Source: Oscillospiraceae bacterium MB24-C1
Lineage (GTDB): Bacteria > Bacillota > Clostridia > Oscillospirales > Ruminococcaceae
DNA: 64,000 nucleotides
Direction of reading: 5' to 3'
NCBI GenBank assembly: GCA_030913685.1
Contig: CP133187.1
Coordinates: forward strand, 1,575,501-1,639,500
Each line of letters begins with the position of its first letter. Within the stretch, counting starts at the first letter, position 1. This document shows positions 20,111 to 38,283 of this stretch, piece by piece. The position numbers were made by a program, and so were the translations under genes. The notes beneath the pieces are model-generated. The model saw only the letters and a list, made by a program, of their open reading frames with translations, made no database searches and had not been told where the DNA came from.

Positions 20111-21307
20111 TTAACGCATGCGGGTCAGCTCCGTCCAAATTAACCCGAGCGCTGAACGCAGGTCCATTTTATCGACTGGTTCGGCTGTAACCACATCATA
20201 TTCACAGATGATAACCCCGTCAAGCATCACCCGTATCGTTCCCGCATGGGTGCCCTCGGCAACAGGCGCTTCAAATTCTTCCACCATGCTCTGCTGCTGT
20301 GTCAGCGCAGTTCCGCGCCCTTTTTCGACCAGCATTTGTTTGGGCGCACAGCTTTTTAGGTTCACCTGCTGGCGCACACCCCCTCTGACCTTGAGTGGCG
20401 TAATAGGGGGTTCAGGTTCCGGCACAGGTTTCGCTTCATAATTGGCAAATCCGTATTCCAGCAGACCACGCGCCGAGCCAAAGCGCTGGTCGCTAGTGTC
20501 GGAGCCGAGCACCACTGCGATGAGCGAAAGATTATCCCGTGTGGCAGAGGCTGCCAGACAGGAACCTGCGCCATCGGTTGTGCCGGTCTTTAGTCCTGTT
20601 GCCCCCTTAAAAAAGCGCACAAGCTTGTTGGTGTTTACCAGCTGTGTCTCTCCGTTGCGCAAGCTGTCCATCCAGATGGTGGTATATTCGATAATTTTCG
20701 GGTGCTTTAAAAGCTCTGCGGACATGGCTGCAATGTCACGTGCTGTGGTTAGATGCCCGTCGGCATCTAGCCCTGTGGCGTTTTTAAAGGTGGAGTTGGT
20801 CATCCCTAGTTCCTGTGCTCGCGTATTCATCAGGTTGACAAAGGCTTCCTCACTGCCTGATACATGTTCGCCGAGCGCCACAGCAGCGTCGTTAGCACTG
20901 GCGATAGCCGTCGCTTTTAGAAGCTCGTGTACTGTCATCTGCTCACCCGGTTCAAACCAAATCTGTGTGCCACCCATCGAGCTGGCATGCGGTGAACAGG
21001 TCACGGTGTCGTCAAGGCTTATTTTGCCCGAGTCAATCGCCTCCATAACCAGCAGCATGGTCATTATTTTTGTAATAGACGCCGGTGGCATAAGGGTGTC
21101 CGGTTCCTTTTCAAACAAAATTTTACCGCTTTCTGGCTCGATTAATATCGCTGAGCGGCAAGGAATATTTGTGTTTACCAGCGCTGCCGCAGGCAGGGCC
21201 TCTTCTTCCTGTACGCCCATCGCGCCTAGTGGCAGGGCGAACAACAACATGGCAGCGCAAAGCAATACCGCCACCGCTTTCCTTTGTCTTTTTATTAGTA
21301 ATTTCAC
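20111..21307 (-). CDS. D-alanyl-D-alanine carboxypeptidase (PBP5/DacF type)
   Basis: Trims the terminal D-Ala from peptidoglycan stem peptides outside the membrane. 398 residues. A signal peptide spans about 1-30. All three catalytic motifs are intact: SITK (Ser77, Lys80), SAN (137-139) and KTG (240-242). A PBP5 C-terminal beta domain and an amphipathic tail follow. The GTG at 21307 is nine bases from GAGGTG and gives a normal signal peptide; upstream in-frame sequence is not signal-like. Compare the motif-altered homologue at 29744. Confidence 0.92.
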   Translation of the reverse strand: MKLLIKRQRKAVAVLLCAAMLLFALPLGAMGVQEEEALPAAALVNTNIPCRSAILIEPESGKILFEKEPDTLMPPASITKIMTMLLVMEAIDSGKISLDDTVTCSPHASSMGGTQIWFEPGEQMTVHELLKATAIASANDAAVALGEHVSGSEEAFVNLMNTRAQELGMTNSTFKNATGLDADGHLTTARDIAAMSAELLKHPKIIEYTTIWMDSLRNGETQLVNTNKLVRFFKGATGLKTGTTDGAGSCLAASATRDNLSLIAVVLGSDTSDQRFGSARGLLEYGFANYEAKPVPEPEPPITPLKVRGGVRQQVNLKSCAPKQMLVEKGRGTALTQQQSMVEEFEAPVAEGTHAGTIRVMLDGVIICEYDVVTAEPVDKMDLRSALGLIWTELTRMR

Positions 21308-32848: not shown

Positions 32849-33841
32849 ATGAAACGGAATCTGTTTTTTCTAACGGCGATGATATTGTTGCTTTCAGCTA
32901 CTCTTATCATCAGCGGCTGTGCGGCCTGTGGCCGGGATTTGACTGGATCTTCTATTCCACCCAGTTCAAGCATGGTCCCCAACCCTGTGCCGTCCACACC
33001 GCCCAGTACCTCGTCGGTCCCAAGCTCCCCTAGCACACCTAGCTCCCCGAGTTCGGGCAGTTCTACCGGATCATCTTCTGATTTGCCCGCGCTAGCGATG
33101 AGTGCCGATTTCTTACAAATCGGCACTCTGGACAATAAATCGGTGCTTTGGGGACCGGGCACCCATCAGGACGCTCTCGGGCGCTCTACTGCTTGTATAG
33201 GTCTGCAAGATCAATACGAGAAGTATGGCGCGTATTTTATTGCGCCAGAAACAGAAAACACCGTGACCCTTTCGTTTGACCAAGGGTATGAAAACGGTTA
33301 TACCGCGCCAATTCTTGACACGCTTAAAGAAAAAGAGGTTCGGGCTATCTTTTTTTTAACCGGCCACTATGTCCGCAGCCAACCCGAGTTGGTACAGCGC
33401 ATGATAGATGAAGGGCATATTTTGGGCAACCATTCTGACAGCCACAAGGTTTACTGTGAAGAGCTTAGCATTGAAGAATCATTTGAGGATGCCAAATGGA
33501 TGCAGGACTACCTGAGAGATAATTTTGATTATGAGATGCGGCTATTTCGTTTCCCAGAAGGGAAGTTTTCTGAACAGGCGCTTGCTCTGATGCAGCAAAT
33601 GGGCTATAAGAGCGTTTTCTGGAGCTTTGCCTACAGCGACTGGGACGTTAAAAACCAGCCGTCGCCCACCGCGGCGATGGAGAAAATTATGAAATATCTG
33701 CACCCCGGCGAAATTATGCTGCTGCACTCAGTTGGTTCGACCAACGCAGAAATTTTGCCCCAAGTCATTGATACTATACGCGACAAAGGCTATATTGTCG
33801 CGCCCTTTGCCTCCATCGACCAGCCTCCCCCCTTATCGTAA
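32849..33841 (+). CDS. Lipoprotein polysaccharide deacetylase (PdaA-like)
   Basis: 330 residues. A signal peptide ends in the lipobox LIISGC (Cys24), so the protein is probably lipid-anchored outside the membrane. A Ser/Pro-rich linker (about 30-80) follows. The NodB-type domain has LSFDQGYENGY (the Gln fits PdaA relatives with DxGYENG), NHSDSH zinc histidines, RFPEGKFS and LLHSVG. Probable target: peptidoglycan muramic acid or GlcNAc N-acetyl groups, as in the PdaA family. Not part of a clear operon. Confidence 0.88.
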   Translation: MKRNLFFLTAMILLLSATLIISGCAACGRDLTGSSIPPSSSMVPNPVPSTPPSTSSVPSSPSTPSSPSSGSSTGSSSDLPALAMSADFLQIGTLDNKSVLWGPGTHQDALGRSTACIGLQDQYEKYGAYFIAPETENTVTLSFDQGYENGYTAPILDTLKEKEVRAIFFLTGHYVRSQPELVQRMIDEGHILGNHSDSHKVYCEELSIEESFEDAKWMQDYLRDNFDYEMRLFRFPEGKFSEQALALMQQMGYKSVFWSFAYSDWDVKNQPSPTAAMEKIMKYLHPGEIMLLHSVGSTNAEILPQVIDTIRDKGYIVAPFASIDQPPPLS

Positions 33842-33900: not shown

Positions 33901-34314
33901 TTATTCTTTATCGGCAGGTTCTTCCGGCGCGACTGGTTCTGTGGTTTCTTCAACCTCGACCTCTACAACCTCGACAACCGGAACGGTGTTATCCTCAGGA
34001 ATGTCTGTCGCAACGCTGTACTCCGCAGTATCACGCTCGTTTTTATGTTGTTCAATCTCAAGATCTAGGTCGGCAATCTGCTGCATGAGCACATCAATGT
34101 CACGGCAGTAATCCAGCAATTCCTCCGGCATCGTTTCGCCGGCTTTGACCTTGCTGTAACAGTACCGCCCAATTGCAGCATAAACACCTTCTATCTGACG
34201 CTCAAGCCCAGCTCTGTCAATGCCCAGCTTTGCAATTTGAACCTGCTCGCCAGCCTTTTTAGCGGTGGTGGAAGCGATGTTGCCAATAATTTTACCGAAT
34301 TTTTCAAATCCCAT
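33901..34314 (-). CDS. Small coiled-coil protein, function unknown
   Basis: 137 residues, no signal peptide or membrane segment. The first 100 residues are predicted helical with a KAGEQVQIAKLGIDRAGLERQI region and a heptad-like stretch near 70-95. The last 35 residues are acidic and rich in Val/Glu/Pro (low complexity). It resembles short helical proteins common in Clostridia that sit near zinc-ribbon proteins, but no function is known. It starts after a normal ribosome site. Confidence 0.7.
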   Translation of the reverse strand: MGFEKFGKIIGNIASTTAKKAGEQVQIAKLGIDRAGLERQIEGVYAAIGRYCYSKVKAGETMPEELLDYCRDIDVLMQQIADLDLEIEQHKNERDTAEYSVATDIPEDNTVPVVEVVEVEVEETTEPVAPEEPADKE

Positions 34315-34413: not shown

Positions 34414-35277
34414 TTATTCTACCTCCATTCGCTTCATGAACCGCTGCGTGGAAACACCATAAGGACGATTAAATCGGCCCAGCGATTGCAAAACCTCAGG
34501 ATCGCCGGTGATGATGTTTACCTTTTCGCAGCAAGTTAGCATGGCGGTAAAGCCCATCTCCTGCAAAATCGGTATTGAATCTTTGCTGATATACCCAAAA
34601 GGATAAGTGAAGGTCGTGGGCACAATACCACAGTATTCTTCCAACAGCGATTGAGCTTTGCCCACATCGTTTATCAGTGCCACGTAATAATCGGCATCGC
34701 TTTCGCCAAGCTTTTTCTTAGCGCCCTTACGAATATCCTTTCGGTGCATATCGTAGGAGTGATTGCCTATTTCGACTCGACCGGTATTGGTTAACGCATC
34801 AATATCCTCCCAACACAGGTACGCATAGGCGGGGTTGGGATCCGGCTTCTGAGCATAGCACTCACAATAGCTGCCCACCACCGAGACGACTGCCTTCATA
34901 TCGTATTTTTCTAAAAGAGGTAGCACGTAGGTCAAATTATTGAGATAGCCGTCGTCAAGCGTAATGATAATCGGTTTTTCCGGCAGCGCCTGACCCGTTA
35001 ATACTGCATCGGCCAGTTCTGAAACAAACATGGTTGTATAGCCATGCGCCTTAATGTAAGCAAAATCGCTTTCGATAGTCTCGGGTGGCACGGTATAGGG
35101 ACCAGCCAGAGACTTATCCTTGAGCACACTATGATACATAACAATTGGCAGCGCCACCCCATCTGCGCCCGCGGCCGCCGAAGCGGGCAGCGCCACCGAC
35201 ATATGCAGTAGCAATCCGGTCATCAGTAGGCAGTATATTGCCCGTGCGCGTACCGAAATGCAAAAAAATCTACGCAT
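34414..35277 (-). CDS. Secreted polysaccharide deacetylase
   Basis: 287 residues with signal peptide (1-35, ending ASAAAGA). The domain starts PIVMYHSV, then IITLDDGYLNN carries the catalytic Asp pair and GNHSYDMH the zinc histidines. This is the carbohydrate esterase 4 fold and the substrate is probably an envelope polymer. It starts eight bases after the stop of the catalase-like gene, suggesting a two-gene operon, although no functional link is known. Confidence 0.88.
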   Translation of the reverse strand: MRRFFCISVRARAIYCLLMTGLLLHMSVALPASAAAGADGVALPIVMYHSVLKDKSLAGPYTVPPETIESDFAYIKAHGYTTMFVSELADAVLTGQALPEKPIIITLDDGYLNNLTYVLPLLEKYDMKAVVSVVGSYCECYAQKPDPNPAYAYLCWEDIDALTNTGRVEIGNHSYDMHRKDIRKGAKKKLGESDADYYVALINDVGKAQSLLEEYCGIVPTTFTYPFGYISKDSIPILQEMGFTAMLTCCEKVNIITGDPEVLQSLGRFNRPYGVSTQRFMKRMEVE

Positions 35278-35284
35278 TCATGCT

Positions 35285-37318
35285 TCACCCGCCAAGAGCC
35301 AGCGTCACCGCCTGGCCAAACTCAAGATCGGCTCTCGAAAAGAGGATAAGCACCTGCTCAAGCAACAGCGGAGGCAACCTAAGAAGCTCTTCGGTTAGAT
35401 TATCTATCAGCCTGTGCCGCGAAAATTCGCCCAGCGAACGCAAATATTGCTGCACTTGGGTAAAATCGTCGCCGCTCTTTTGAGCCGGAGCTGGCACATG
35501 CTCGATACCTGGAATGATATTTTCCGGTTGGAACCGCGCACAGTTAAGCTCGGTCTGCACATCATCCGGTAGCCTTTCCAGCGTCAGCAACCCGATGCGC
35601 TGAAGCTTAAACTGTTCTGTTGGCCAGATAGCTGTCGGATCAAAGGGGTCAAAAGATAATGAAGCAAACTGTTCTGGTTCAATAACCTGAATGCTCAGCT
35701 CATATTGTGGACGTTCACCCGCCTGAAGGCTGATAGACAAGTCGCGCGCCACCCCATCGGGGTCAGAGCCTGCCAGCTCTTCCGATTCAAACCGCGTCAG
35801 TGTTTGCGGGCGCTGCCGCGATAGCCAGCGCGGGCGTACCGCACGGCGCTCATTCTTGGCGTTCACCCAAATACAGGGCAGTCCGTAACCATCAATTGTG
35901 CGATAGCTGCCGATGGTACCCAGATCGGAATAAAGCCACATTGTACCGTGCAGCGCCTCCGGATGGGTCACAAGAAATTCCCAAAACGCCGCGCGGGTGC
36001 GCAAACCGGTTTTTGGGTTGGCTCGCGAAGCGGCACAGCATTCGGTCAACGTGTTTTCAGTCGTTCCCACCGAGACGGGCAGATGCATGCCAAACAGGTC
36101 ATACTCTCCCTCACGGCAAAAGAACTTGACCGTAAAGCTGCGTCGACATCTTATCGCATCAGCGCTGCCCATTGGCACATCGGCAGCGAATCGCACCAGT
36201 GTTTGAACCGCCTCTCCCGGCGTCTGCATAAAAGAGGCAAGGGTATATTTGCCCATCCGCTCATAGGGGCGAAAAACGCCGTAAGCACCTGCGTCTTTTT
36301 CAAATTCGGTGTGCGCTATGCAACCGGGCTGTTGGGTTTTGACTGGCGCAAAAGCCCGATCATTTTTTATTGGTTCAGGCTGCTGCTCTGGCAGGACAAT
36401 TGCCATGCTTGATGGCGGTGCGGTTGCTACGGACGGTGTCACAATAGCTTGAGGCTTTTTCTCAGCATTGCTGTCCGTAGCCAATTGTGGTGTAGGCGCA
36501 GGCGCTTGGGCAACATCCTCCTTTAGTTGCGGCAACATTTCGGAACTGTTTTGGGGTACATTTGGGAGCACAGATTGCGTCTCTGTTATGTTTTCTGTCA
36601 TCATTACATTTGTCATGGGCGCGCTTTCTGAGGTTATGTCAACTGGTTGCGGCAACTGTAAAGCGAGCGGCTCCGGTGAGGTTGCATCAACTGGTTGCGG
36701 CAGCTGTAAAGCGGGCGACTCCGGTGAGGCTGCGTCAACTGGTTGCGATAGCTGCGAAGTGGGCGGCCCCGGTGAGGTTGCGTCAACTGGTTGCGATAGC
36801 TGCGAAGTGGGCGGCCCCGGTGAGGTTGCGTCAACTGGTTGCGGTAGCTGCAAAGTGGGCAGTTCCGGCAATGTGGGCGGCTCCGCCGGCTGCAACGGTT
36901 CAACAAATATTTGTAGTTCATCTTCCTCACCCTGTGTTGACGGTTCAATAGCCTGTTCCCCAATTTCAACTTGGGCATCGGGCCGGGGTATCTGGGCTGT
37001 TGGCAACAGCATAATAGGTGGTGTCTCAACCATAACTTTTTCGCGGCGGCCCTCAGGCTGCACTATAATTTTTTTGTTTTCTAATATAGTTTGTGTCGTC
37101 GGCTGTCTTACTTCTACCTTGGGCGGCGCGGCTTGCTTTTGCTCCGCCACTGCTGAAGTTCGATCCATTCTGCCTTTTTCAGAAGTTTCGAGATTTTGGG
37201 CCAGTGTTGGCTTGCCCGGCGGGGTTGCCCGCTGATAACGTAGCAGCTCTGCACGGTATCGTTCCATCATCGCTTCCAGCGATGCATGATCAAAGTCATT
37301 AGCAGTTGGTCTTTGCAC
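35285..37318 (-). CDS. Catalase-like protein with disordered repeat N-terminus, heme-ligand segment missing
   Basis: 677 residues, GTG start ten bases after AAGGAGG. Residues 1-330 are Pro/Gln-rich and probably disordered, with five 16-residue repeats (about 154-230). From about 334 the chain aligns by eye to heme catalases: IAH-TEFEKDAGAYG (His336 at the place of the catalytic His), LVRFAAD, FTVKFFCREGEYDLFG (405-410 region), WEFLVTHPEALH, and IIPGIEHVPA. The next segment, DDFTQ...YLRSL...RLIDNL, aligns to the separate catalase-rel domain. The intervening Tyr heme-ligand segment (RLFSY) is absent, and the catalytic Asn region reads MHLPV instead of NNTPV. No signal peptide. Possibly no longer a catalase. 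Confidence 0.7.
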   Translation of the reverse strand: MQRPTANDFDHASLEAMMERYRAELLRYQRATPPGKPTLAQNLETSEKGRMDRTSAVAEQKQAAPPKVEVRQPTTQTILENKKIIVQPEGRREKVMVETPPIMLLPTAQIPRPDAQVEIGEQAIEPSTQGEEDELQIFVEPLQPAEPPTLPELPTLQLPQPVDATSPGPPTSQLSQPVDATSPGPPTSQLSQPVDAASPESPALQLPQPVDATSPEPLALQLPQPVDITSESAPMTNVMMTENITETQSVLPNVPQNSSEMLPQLKEDVAQAPAPTPQLATDSNAEKKPQAIVTPSVATAPPSSMAIVLPEQQPEPIKNDRAFAPVKTQQPGCIAHTEFEKDAGAYGVFRPYERMGKYTLASFMQTPGEAVQTLVRFAADVPMGSADAIRCRRSFTVKFFCREGEYDLFGMHLPVSVGTTENTLTECCAASRANPKTGLRTRAAFWEFLVTHPEALHGTMWLYSDLGTIGSYRTIDGYGLPCIWVNAKNERRAVRPRWLSRQRPQTLTRFESEELAGSDPDGVARDLSISLQAGERPQYELSIQVIEPEQFASLSFDPFDPTAIWPTEQFKLQRIGLLTLERLPDDVQTELNCARFQPENIIPGIEHVPAPAQKSGDDFTQVQQYLRSLGEFSRHRLIDNLTEELLRLPPLLLEQVLILFSRADLEFGQAVTLALGG
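36635..36859. repeat. Five 48-bp tandem repeats in the catalase-like gene
   Basis: In-frame direct repeats encode copies of a 16-residue unit with QPVDATSP. Two neighbouring copies (around 36740-36840) are identical at DNA level, a sign of recent expansion. Confidence 0.8.
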
Positions 37319-37468
37319 GACGCCTCAGCCTCCTTTTTTGTTCTCTCAAAAGTATATGAGGCATCGCCGTGTAAATATTAACTCTTGTGTGACATTTCTG
37401 AGTCTTATTGCCAAGCCGTAAAAATTATCGTGTAATTAAAACTTTGAATTAGGGTTTTGGGCATGCAA

Positions 37469-37509: not shown

Positions 37510-38274
37510 TTATTTCTTACTCATTACGGACATGGGGTCGATGAATTTGCCGTTTTGCTTGCATTCAAAGTGTAAATGCGACGGCATAAGGCTTTCAGCG
37601 GGGATATAGCCGACAAGCCCGACCACCTGACCCAACTTGACCGAATCGCCTTCTTTGACCGAAAGCTGTTTGGCTAGGCCACAGTAGTTGGTAACTACGC
37701 CGTTTGAATGCGTAATTTCTACCACATAGCCCCAAAGCGCATCTGAACGCACAGCCGTCACCTTGCCCTTGGCAGCTGCTTTGACCGCTGCACCCTGTTC
37801 AGCTGCAATATCAACCCCGTTGTGGGTGCGCCAGTCGCCCAGTGTCTCACTCTTAACCAGTTCGCCATTGGAGTAGGGTGTGAATACTTCCCCCTCAATC
37901 GGCATGGTCAAGGATAATTTGGCTGATGACGCCGGCACGCCGGACTGTCCTGAGCCGGTGGATCGCTCGGCAGGCTGACTCGAAGAGGATTGCACCTTTG
38001 AGGAAGAGGAGGACGGTTGCGATGATTCTATTTTGACGCCGTCTTGTTTTCCTGCCGCCTCCTCCAGCTGAGGGAAGTTCCATTCATCCGCTGCTGAATG
38101 TTGGCGCGTTATCGTACTCGACTGCGCCGGGGGTTGAACGGTTGCATCTCCTGTACTGGTTTCCATCGCGAGATAAGCCGCGGTTCCCGCGCCCGCCAGA
38201 CAGAAAGCCAGCACAACATAAAAGCCTTTACCACTTAAAAACCCTGTAAATTTATTTTCGGAACGATCAGACAT
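37510..38274 (-). CDS. Membrane-anchored M23 peptidase, SpoIIQ-like
   Basis: 254 residues. One membrane segment (about 17-37) follows a short cytoplasmic N-terminus, so the catalytic domain is outside. A low-complexity Ser/Gln linker (about 60-115) comes before the lysostaphin-type domain. HNGVDIAAEQGAAV and HLHFE carry the zinc ligands, which are intact. Single-span M23 proteins with this layout include the sporulation protein SpoIIQ, but the assignment to sporulation is only suggestive. The ATG at 38274 lies eight bases after GGAGG. Confidence 0.8.
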   Translation of the reverse strand: MSDRSENKFTGFLSGKGFYVVLAFCLAGAGTAAYLAMETSTGDATVQPPAQSSTITRQHSAADEWNFPQLEEAAGKQDGVKIESSQPSSSSSKVQSSSSQPAERSTGSGQSGVPASSAKLSLTMPIEGEVFTPYSNGELVKSETLGDWRTHNGVDIAAEQGAAVKAAAKGKVTAVRSDALWGYVVEITHSNGVVTNYCGLAKQLSVKEGDSVKLGQVVGLVGYIPAESLMPSHLHFECKQNGKFIDPMSVMSKK

Positions 38275-38283
38275 CTTTTGCAC

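Follow-up and report, generated by a model that had tools for sequence, protein, structure and literature searches.

The pseudocatalase locus

The gene described here occupies positions 35285-37318 on the reverse strand of the window, the 64,000-nucleotide stretch of Oscillospiraceae bacterium MB24-C1 DNA that was analysed. It has a GTG start and encodes a 677-residue catalase homologue, referred to below as the pseudocatalase. Features of the window are on the reverse strand unless the forward strand is given. An N-terminal helix motif, FDHASLEAMMERYRAELLRYQRATPPGKPTLAQNL (residues 9-43; 37190-37294), common to a catalase of genome G006 and to beta-domain proteins, is followed by a head of Pro/Gln-rich, low-complexity sequence (residues 44-335; 36314-37189). 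The head contains the repeats reported in a first-pass annotation of the letters, which amount to 4.8 tandem copies of a 48-nt unit encoding 16 residues (36629-36860). The remainder comprises a catalase domain without its N-terminal arm and Tyr segment (residues 341-608; 35495-36298), a junction of 10 residues in place of the heme-Tyr segment (35468-35497), and a Catalase-rel domain (residues 616-674; 35297-35473).

The first-pass annotation had proposed descent from catalases with loss of the heme-ligand segment, and had suggested a profile search and a structure prediction as checks. Both catalase profiles matched: Pfam Catalase (PF00199) aligned with residues 341-608 over profile positions 50-319 of 383 (E 3e-62), and Catalase-rel (PF06628) with residues 616-674 (E 2.9e-8). 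Profile positions 1-49, the N-terminal arm, and 320-383, which hold the RxxxY heme ligand, were unmatched, confirming the proposed descent and loss. Similarly, a phmmer search of solved structures aligned Bacillus pumilus catalase (4qol) strongly with residues 340-607, and the C-terminal part of 4qol weakly with residues 596-676 (9.7 bits). No Mn-catalase domain was present, these two families being the only matches up to E 1, and no second PF00199 match was found in the organism's own 2.95-Mb genome.

As annotated earlier, the next gene encodes a polysaccharide deacetylase with a hydrophobic, signal-like N-terminal stretch (34414-35277); it starts 7 nt downstream, in the same operon. It is followed by a gene for a 137-residue coiled-coil-like protein (33901-34314). 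Upstream lies a gene for an M23 peptidase-domain protein (37510-38283), whose best NCBIfam match was SpoIIQ, below the model cut-off. On the forward strand, 32849-33841 encodes a lipoprotein-like deacetylase that best matched PdaA, a sporulation model, at E 5.3e-68 (below cut-off).

Heme site and predicted fold

The PGIE and FTQ blocks are separated by 10 residues in the pseudocatalase and 11 in its homologue L016, versus 92 in the syntenic, intact catalase L011. An intact RxxxY motif, which the first-pass annotation had allowed might still lie in residues 600-640, was absent from the translation there. The altered distal Asn region that it had noted was also found: Met occupies the column of the catalytic Asn (GNNTP to GMHLP), and Ala replaces the Ser of RFS. 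The distal-His region, which it had considered retained, does align, but the His itself is doubtful. Specifically, Phe339 occupies the His column, and His336, three residues upstream, could be the displaced counterpart. His336 is present in four of the five genus members and absent in L019. With the proximal ligands and the catalytic Asn gone, the protein is, by sequence, no working catalase, as had been proposed.

A first structure model had a pLDDT of 49.6. Modelling residues 325-677 from six sequences gave a mean pLDDT of 68 and a pTM of 0.63, although the model was weak at the distal-His region, with a pLDDT below 50 over the first 19 modelled residues. The best Foldseek match to catalases had an E-value of 1.4e-22, and VIA-align superposed 333 residues on human catalase 1qqw (Z 28.8, rmsd 3.8). 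The model matched a catalase fold and is consistent with the earlier idea that the fold was reused; because the alignment included one intact catalase, which may bias towards that fold, its support is partial. Passages of PMC4192493 report that the substitution P28T in the arm of Enterococcus faecalis KatA leads to aggregation. The missing N-terminal arm accordingly suggests that the pseudocatalase does not assemble into the usual tetramer.

Conservation of the truncated gene

All five genomes of the genus contained a PF00199 match, and all five were truncated, starting at profile position 45 or 50 and ending at 312 or 320. Besides the window organism, these were Ruminococcaceae bacterium D5 (L050), Yanshouia hominis BX1 (L051), and two metagenome-assembled genomes (L052, L053); NCBI places Yanshouia in Oscillospiraceae. 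We rejected the possibility that a frameshift or an assembly error conceals the Tyr segment, as the other four genomes lack it too. A phage gene was also rejected, no relative having been found in a scan of viral contigs; scans of such contigs for more catalases yielded one gene only.

The genus homologues were 42-56% identical to the window domain. Using our own script for the Nei-Gojobori method, dN/dS was 0.069 between L015 and L016 and 0.114 between L016 and the window gene, where dS was saturated (3.5). Across seven pairs of heme-less genes the range was 0.055-0.114, the five pairs from family f27 (see below) spanning 0.055-0.107. Invariant blocks outside the heme site, e.g., RFAAD and RCRRSF, are kept in the genus. 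As judged from these substitution patterns, the truncated gene is under purifying selection and is not decaying. That it is a decaying pseudogene of a catalase might be argued from the missing active-site residues and the varying length and repeats of the head. We consider this very improbable given truncated homologues in 5/5 genus genomes (the L015 copy containing a run of N), these dN/dS values, and the conservation of both the blocks and a promoter-like element.

An intact relative with the same head

Among 197 genomes of the family, 17 had PF00199 matches: three genus members, nine ordinary KatA-type catalases, four proteins with a head or extension (L011-L014), and one fragment. L011, from the sister-genus genome G006, is a 777-residue frame comprising the helix MEALMQHYREELLRYQRATPPG, a head rich in Pro and a complete catalase. 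It thus resembles the pseudocatalase in its helix, head, deacetylase operon and promoter-like element but differs in retaining the His, the Asn (GNHIP), and the Arg and Tyr (RSFAY). The genes downstream of L011 are homologous to the deacetylase gene of the window (60% identity) and to the 33901-34314 gene (50%). When the heme-site columns were left out, trees placed the genus clade as sister to L011, with support of 96 in a quick tree and 97/93 in a careful one.

The first-pass annotation had the head gained along with the loss of heme binding. This order was not upheld: as the catalase of the sister-genus operon has this head and is intact, the head is the older. From these comparisons, loss of the heme site probably followed the appearance of the operon, the head and the promoter-like element.

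The deacetylase gene is downstream in the window, L050, L051, L053 and G006, overlapping the pseudocatalase gene by 4 nt in L050 and L051, and is absent downstream in L052. The coiled-coil-like gene is also downstream in L053 and G006, and the SpoIIQ-like gene is upstream in the window and in L053. SpoIVA occurs in 5/5 genus genomes but also in 56/61 relatives and does not discriminate.

Heme-less homologues in other Clostridia

Two weak matches in samples of the order and class proved to be catalase homologues without the ligands. The G219 gene, which is split between two contig pieces, reads RALGAKG, with LSALSFFM as its Tyr segment; that of G608 reads RLFFEGC and MMMAFAC. In the G219 gene (L080 and L084), from another family of the order, His is replaced by Gly and Tyr by Met, with the segment kept. 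The family of G608, coded f27, had PF00199 matches in 72 of 349 genomes. We collected 34 regions with weak matches or matches short of the profile ends, plus the f27 search loci. The resulting 153 hits comprised 138 unique sequences, 135 of at least 180 residues and 130 rows after removal of contained copies.

The His, Arg and Tyr were kept in 86 of the 130 aligned rows and not in 44. The latter represent 42 distinct genes, as L020 repeats the window gene and L080 and L084 are one gene; 42/130 is not a rate, the regions having been chosen. Thirty-six of the 42 are in f27, another family of Clostridia, five in the genus and one in G219. None retains the Arg or the Asn, 14 retain the His, and two short genes have a Tyr in a doubtful stretch. 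These counts leave out several partial PF00199 matches (e.g., G322, G607, G685, G773, G800, G1064, G1087 and G1094). The f27 loci (L159, L191-L193, L194-L227) hold many genes of approximately 300-450 residues that could be annotated as catalases and lack the heme Arg and Tyr, the shorter ones also lacking the Catalase-rel part; CATATACT or CATATATT lies just upstream of most of them. Two intact catalases, L077 and L078, have heads of another kind, with Cys/Pro/Glu-rich repeats (PECPECPECP in L078).

The f27 (e.g., L216, L217) and G219 homologues resemble the pseudocatalase in having a catalase fold without the Arg and Tyr, most with a CATAYAHT box upstream. They differ in that the longer ones have mostly substitutions rather than a segment deletion, in that the f27 proteins read lack a long Pro-rich head, and in branching separately from the window genus. 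Indeed, the tree contained two separate degenerate groups, albeit with long branches present. A single heme-less clade appeared in 0/200 bootstrap trees; the AU test did not reject it (p 0.095). Synteny argues for two losses rather than one. Heme loss in f27 was probably independent of that in the genus.

Promoter-like element

Upstream of the pseudocatalase gene, positions 37351-37380 contain a putative mother-cell sigma-type promoter, TAATATT-N15-CATATACT, whose -10 box starts 40 nt before the start codon. The full pattern had a single match in the window and none in 100 shuffles, though it had itself been derived from the genes compared here. The -35-like element keeps the 15-nt spacing in L016, L021 and L011, as TACTATT, and in L018, as TACTATC; L019 has CATATAAT with a poorer -35. 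Passages of PMC3789822 describe Clostridioides difficile sigma-E and sigma-K promoters as having common -10 sequences and differing at -35 (ATA or AC), and give CATATAAT for a sigK promoter. The window sequence is of the sigma-E/sigma-K type, the two being indistinguishable here; this is a match of sequence and not of transcription.

Searching for CATAYAHT within 120 nt upstream, we found the box at 5/5 genus genes versus 1/13 ordinary KatA genes. It also preceded four of ten other headed catalases, one of which (L080) was later found to be heme-less. Genes for beta-domain proteins with a similar N-terminus (beta-head genes) had the strict box in 3/15 cases and a looser one in 5/15. In the larger set, the box was present at 39/42 heme-less genes versus 7/85 intact ones, one intact row lacking upstream sequence having been left out. 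Fisher's exact test gave p 6e-22, a value that ignores relatedness, which inflates the contrast; with approximately two losses, independent pairs cannot reach significance. Three heme-less genes had no box: L223, L211 and, by exclusion, L015. The true start of L015 is on the far side of the run of N, and in L021 that start does have the box. The seven intact genes with a box include the helix-bearing L011, L013 and L074.

Of 37 window ORFs with a Shine-Dalgarno-like site, two had the box: the pseudocatalase gene and 20111-21307, a D-Ala-D-Ala carboxypeptidase-like gene on the same strand. At 14 neighbourhood loci, which had been fetched around such genes, the box preceded 6/129 ORFs, all encoding pseudocatalases, head catalases or a beta-head protein. 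Genome-wide, the full pattern allowing two mismatches was not enriched (24 sites versus 22 in the control), and we rejected it as a genome-wide regulon motif. The intended positive controls for the promoter, spoIVA and spoIIIAA, were uninformative. Judged by sequence, sporulation control of the pseudocatalase gene is well supported.

The N-terminal helix

A search with residues 1-47 retrieved catalase heads and, among many chance matches, five proteins that matched weakly at the N-terminus and have a beta domain at the C-terminus (L024, L025, L027, L036 and L045). Three of these five approached Pfam CarboxypepD_reg, below its cut-off. A profile of the beta-domain proteins had members in 36/61 relatives, mostly via the C-terminal domain, including L085 in the organism's own genome. 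With a profile of the N-terminus only, built from eight beta-head members, the pseudocatalase was the top non-beta protein (E 0.002, among 3414 frames from loci rich in beta-head genes). On these similarities, the helix is a module common to catalase heads and an unrelated beta-domain protein, and it probably serves docking.

In five loci (L090-L094), as well as next to L085, the beta-head gene is followed by a gene of similar appearance when compared by eye. The one beside L085, the only one scanned, had weak matches to SpoIID/LytB and SleB models, below cut-off. The L085 frame itself (L085:574-1821; contig C1 near 2689373) has 437 residues and combines a similar helix at the N-terminus with Pro-rich repeats and, at the C-terminus, a beta domain.

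Discussion

The promoter box, the neighbouring genes and the recurrence in other Clostridia now point to a role. We regard as reasonably probable that the mother cell makes the protein as a pseudocatalase of the spore envelope, in which the catalase core is a structural module of the coat and the head a tether. In the sporulating mother cell, the pseudocatalase and deacetylase genes would be transcribed together from the sigma-E/sigma-K-type promoter. The amphipathic N-terminal helix and the long Pro-rich linker would tether the protein to a spore-envelope partner. The core, without heme site or N-terminal arm, would be a non-enzymatic structural or binding module, and the deacetylase would act on polysaccharide nearby. 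The protein would descend from a sporulation catalase that had its heme site, as in the sister genus, and lost it later. We infer a structural role in the spore, together with mother-cell transcription, spore location and docking. Of the two roles proposed in the first-pass annotation, a scaffold fits, whereas nothing specific supports a sensor.

The main rival is a ligand-binding or carrier protein in the sporulating mother cell or coat, its altered pocket binding heme, porphyrin or another small molecule without catalysis. Passages of PMC4192493 describe E. faecalis apocatalase assembling with a porphyrin that contains no metal, so a missing Tyr would not by itself rule out porphyrin binding, and the retention of His336 in most of the genus and of a distal-column His in a third of the heme-less genes fits a remaining pocket. 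The genus has lost far more than the Tyr, however: the Asn, the Arg, the whole proximal segment and the N-terminal arm are gone, and in L019 the His as well, leaving a carrier unlikely. We give still less weight to a regulator or partner of the adjoining deacetylase that, instead of building the coat, positions or controls this enzyme in the envelope of the sporulating cell. The operon order kept in the window, L050, L051, L053 and G006 and the overlapping genes of L050 and L051 would suit such a partner, but L052 lacks the pair, and in G608 different genes immediately flank the heme-less one. Moreover, the deacetylase is probably exported, judging by its signal-like N-terminus, whereas the pseudocatalase has no apparent signal peptide.

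Monofunctional heme catalases of the KatA type are reviewed in PMC9687031, of which passages were used. The pseudocatalase shares their catalase core and C-terminal Catalase-rel domain (PF00199 plus PF06628) but lacks the proximal Arg/Tyr segment, the catalytic Asn and the N-terminal arm, has a doubtful distal His, and carries a 335-residue head instead. Chanoclavine synthase (9jdb, 9jdc), which presumably keeps heme, has, by fold match, a catalase-like fold in another role, as given by the entry title, and differs in being an enzyme. The known spore-coat catalases, CotJC, CotCB, CotD and CotG, are likewise catalase-related and linked to the clostridial spore. As described in passages of PMC8745062, PMC9542656 and PMC3789822, they belong to a separate family of manganese enzymes, and activity has been demonstrated for CotD and CotG. 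An excerpt of Galperin et al. (PMC3533761) lists SpoIIQ among sporulation proteins that are former enzymes; it is comparable in this respect and differs in its M23 peptidase fold. Pseudoenzymes in sporulation are thus already known as a kind, and a new protein family possibly lies behind the window gene. Titles and abstract openings among the matches listed, which covered few subscription journals, did not describe catalase homologues that lack heme and act in sporulation.

More broadly, we see an even chance that spore-forming Clostridia turned the catalase fold at least twice into a family of heme-less, mother-cell-controlled spore pseudocatalases, here via an intact sporulation catalase whose modular, N-terminal docking helix also occurs on an unrelated beta-domain protein. 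"Catalase" annotations in gut Clostridia may be taken for peroxide defence, although in genes of the heme-less kind the proximal ligands are missing. If this broader reading is true, the catalase fold would be a recurring building block of the spore, and the pairing of the intact G006 protein with the heme-less proteins of the window genus would make pseudoenzyme evolution directly testable. The short helix, in turn, may guide proteins of diverse kinds to the envelope of the spore.
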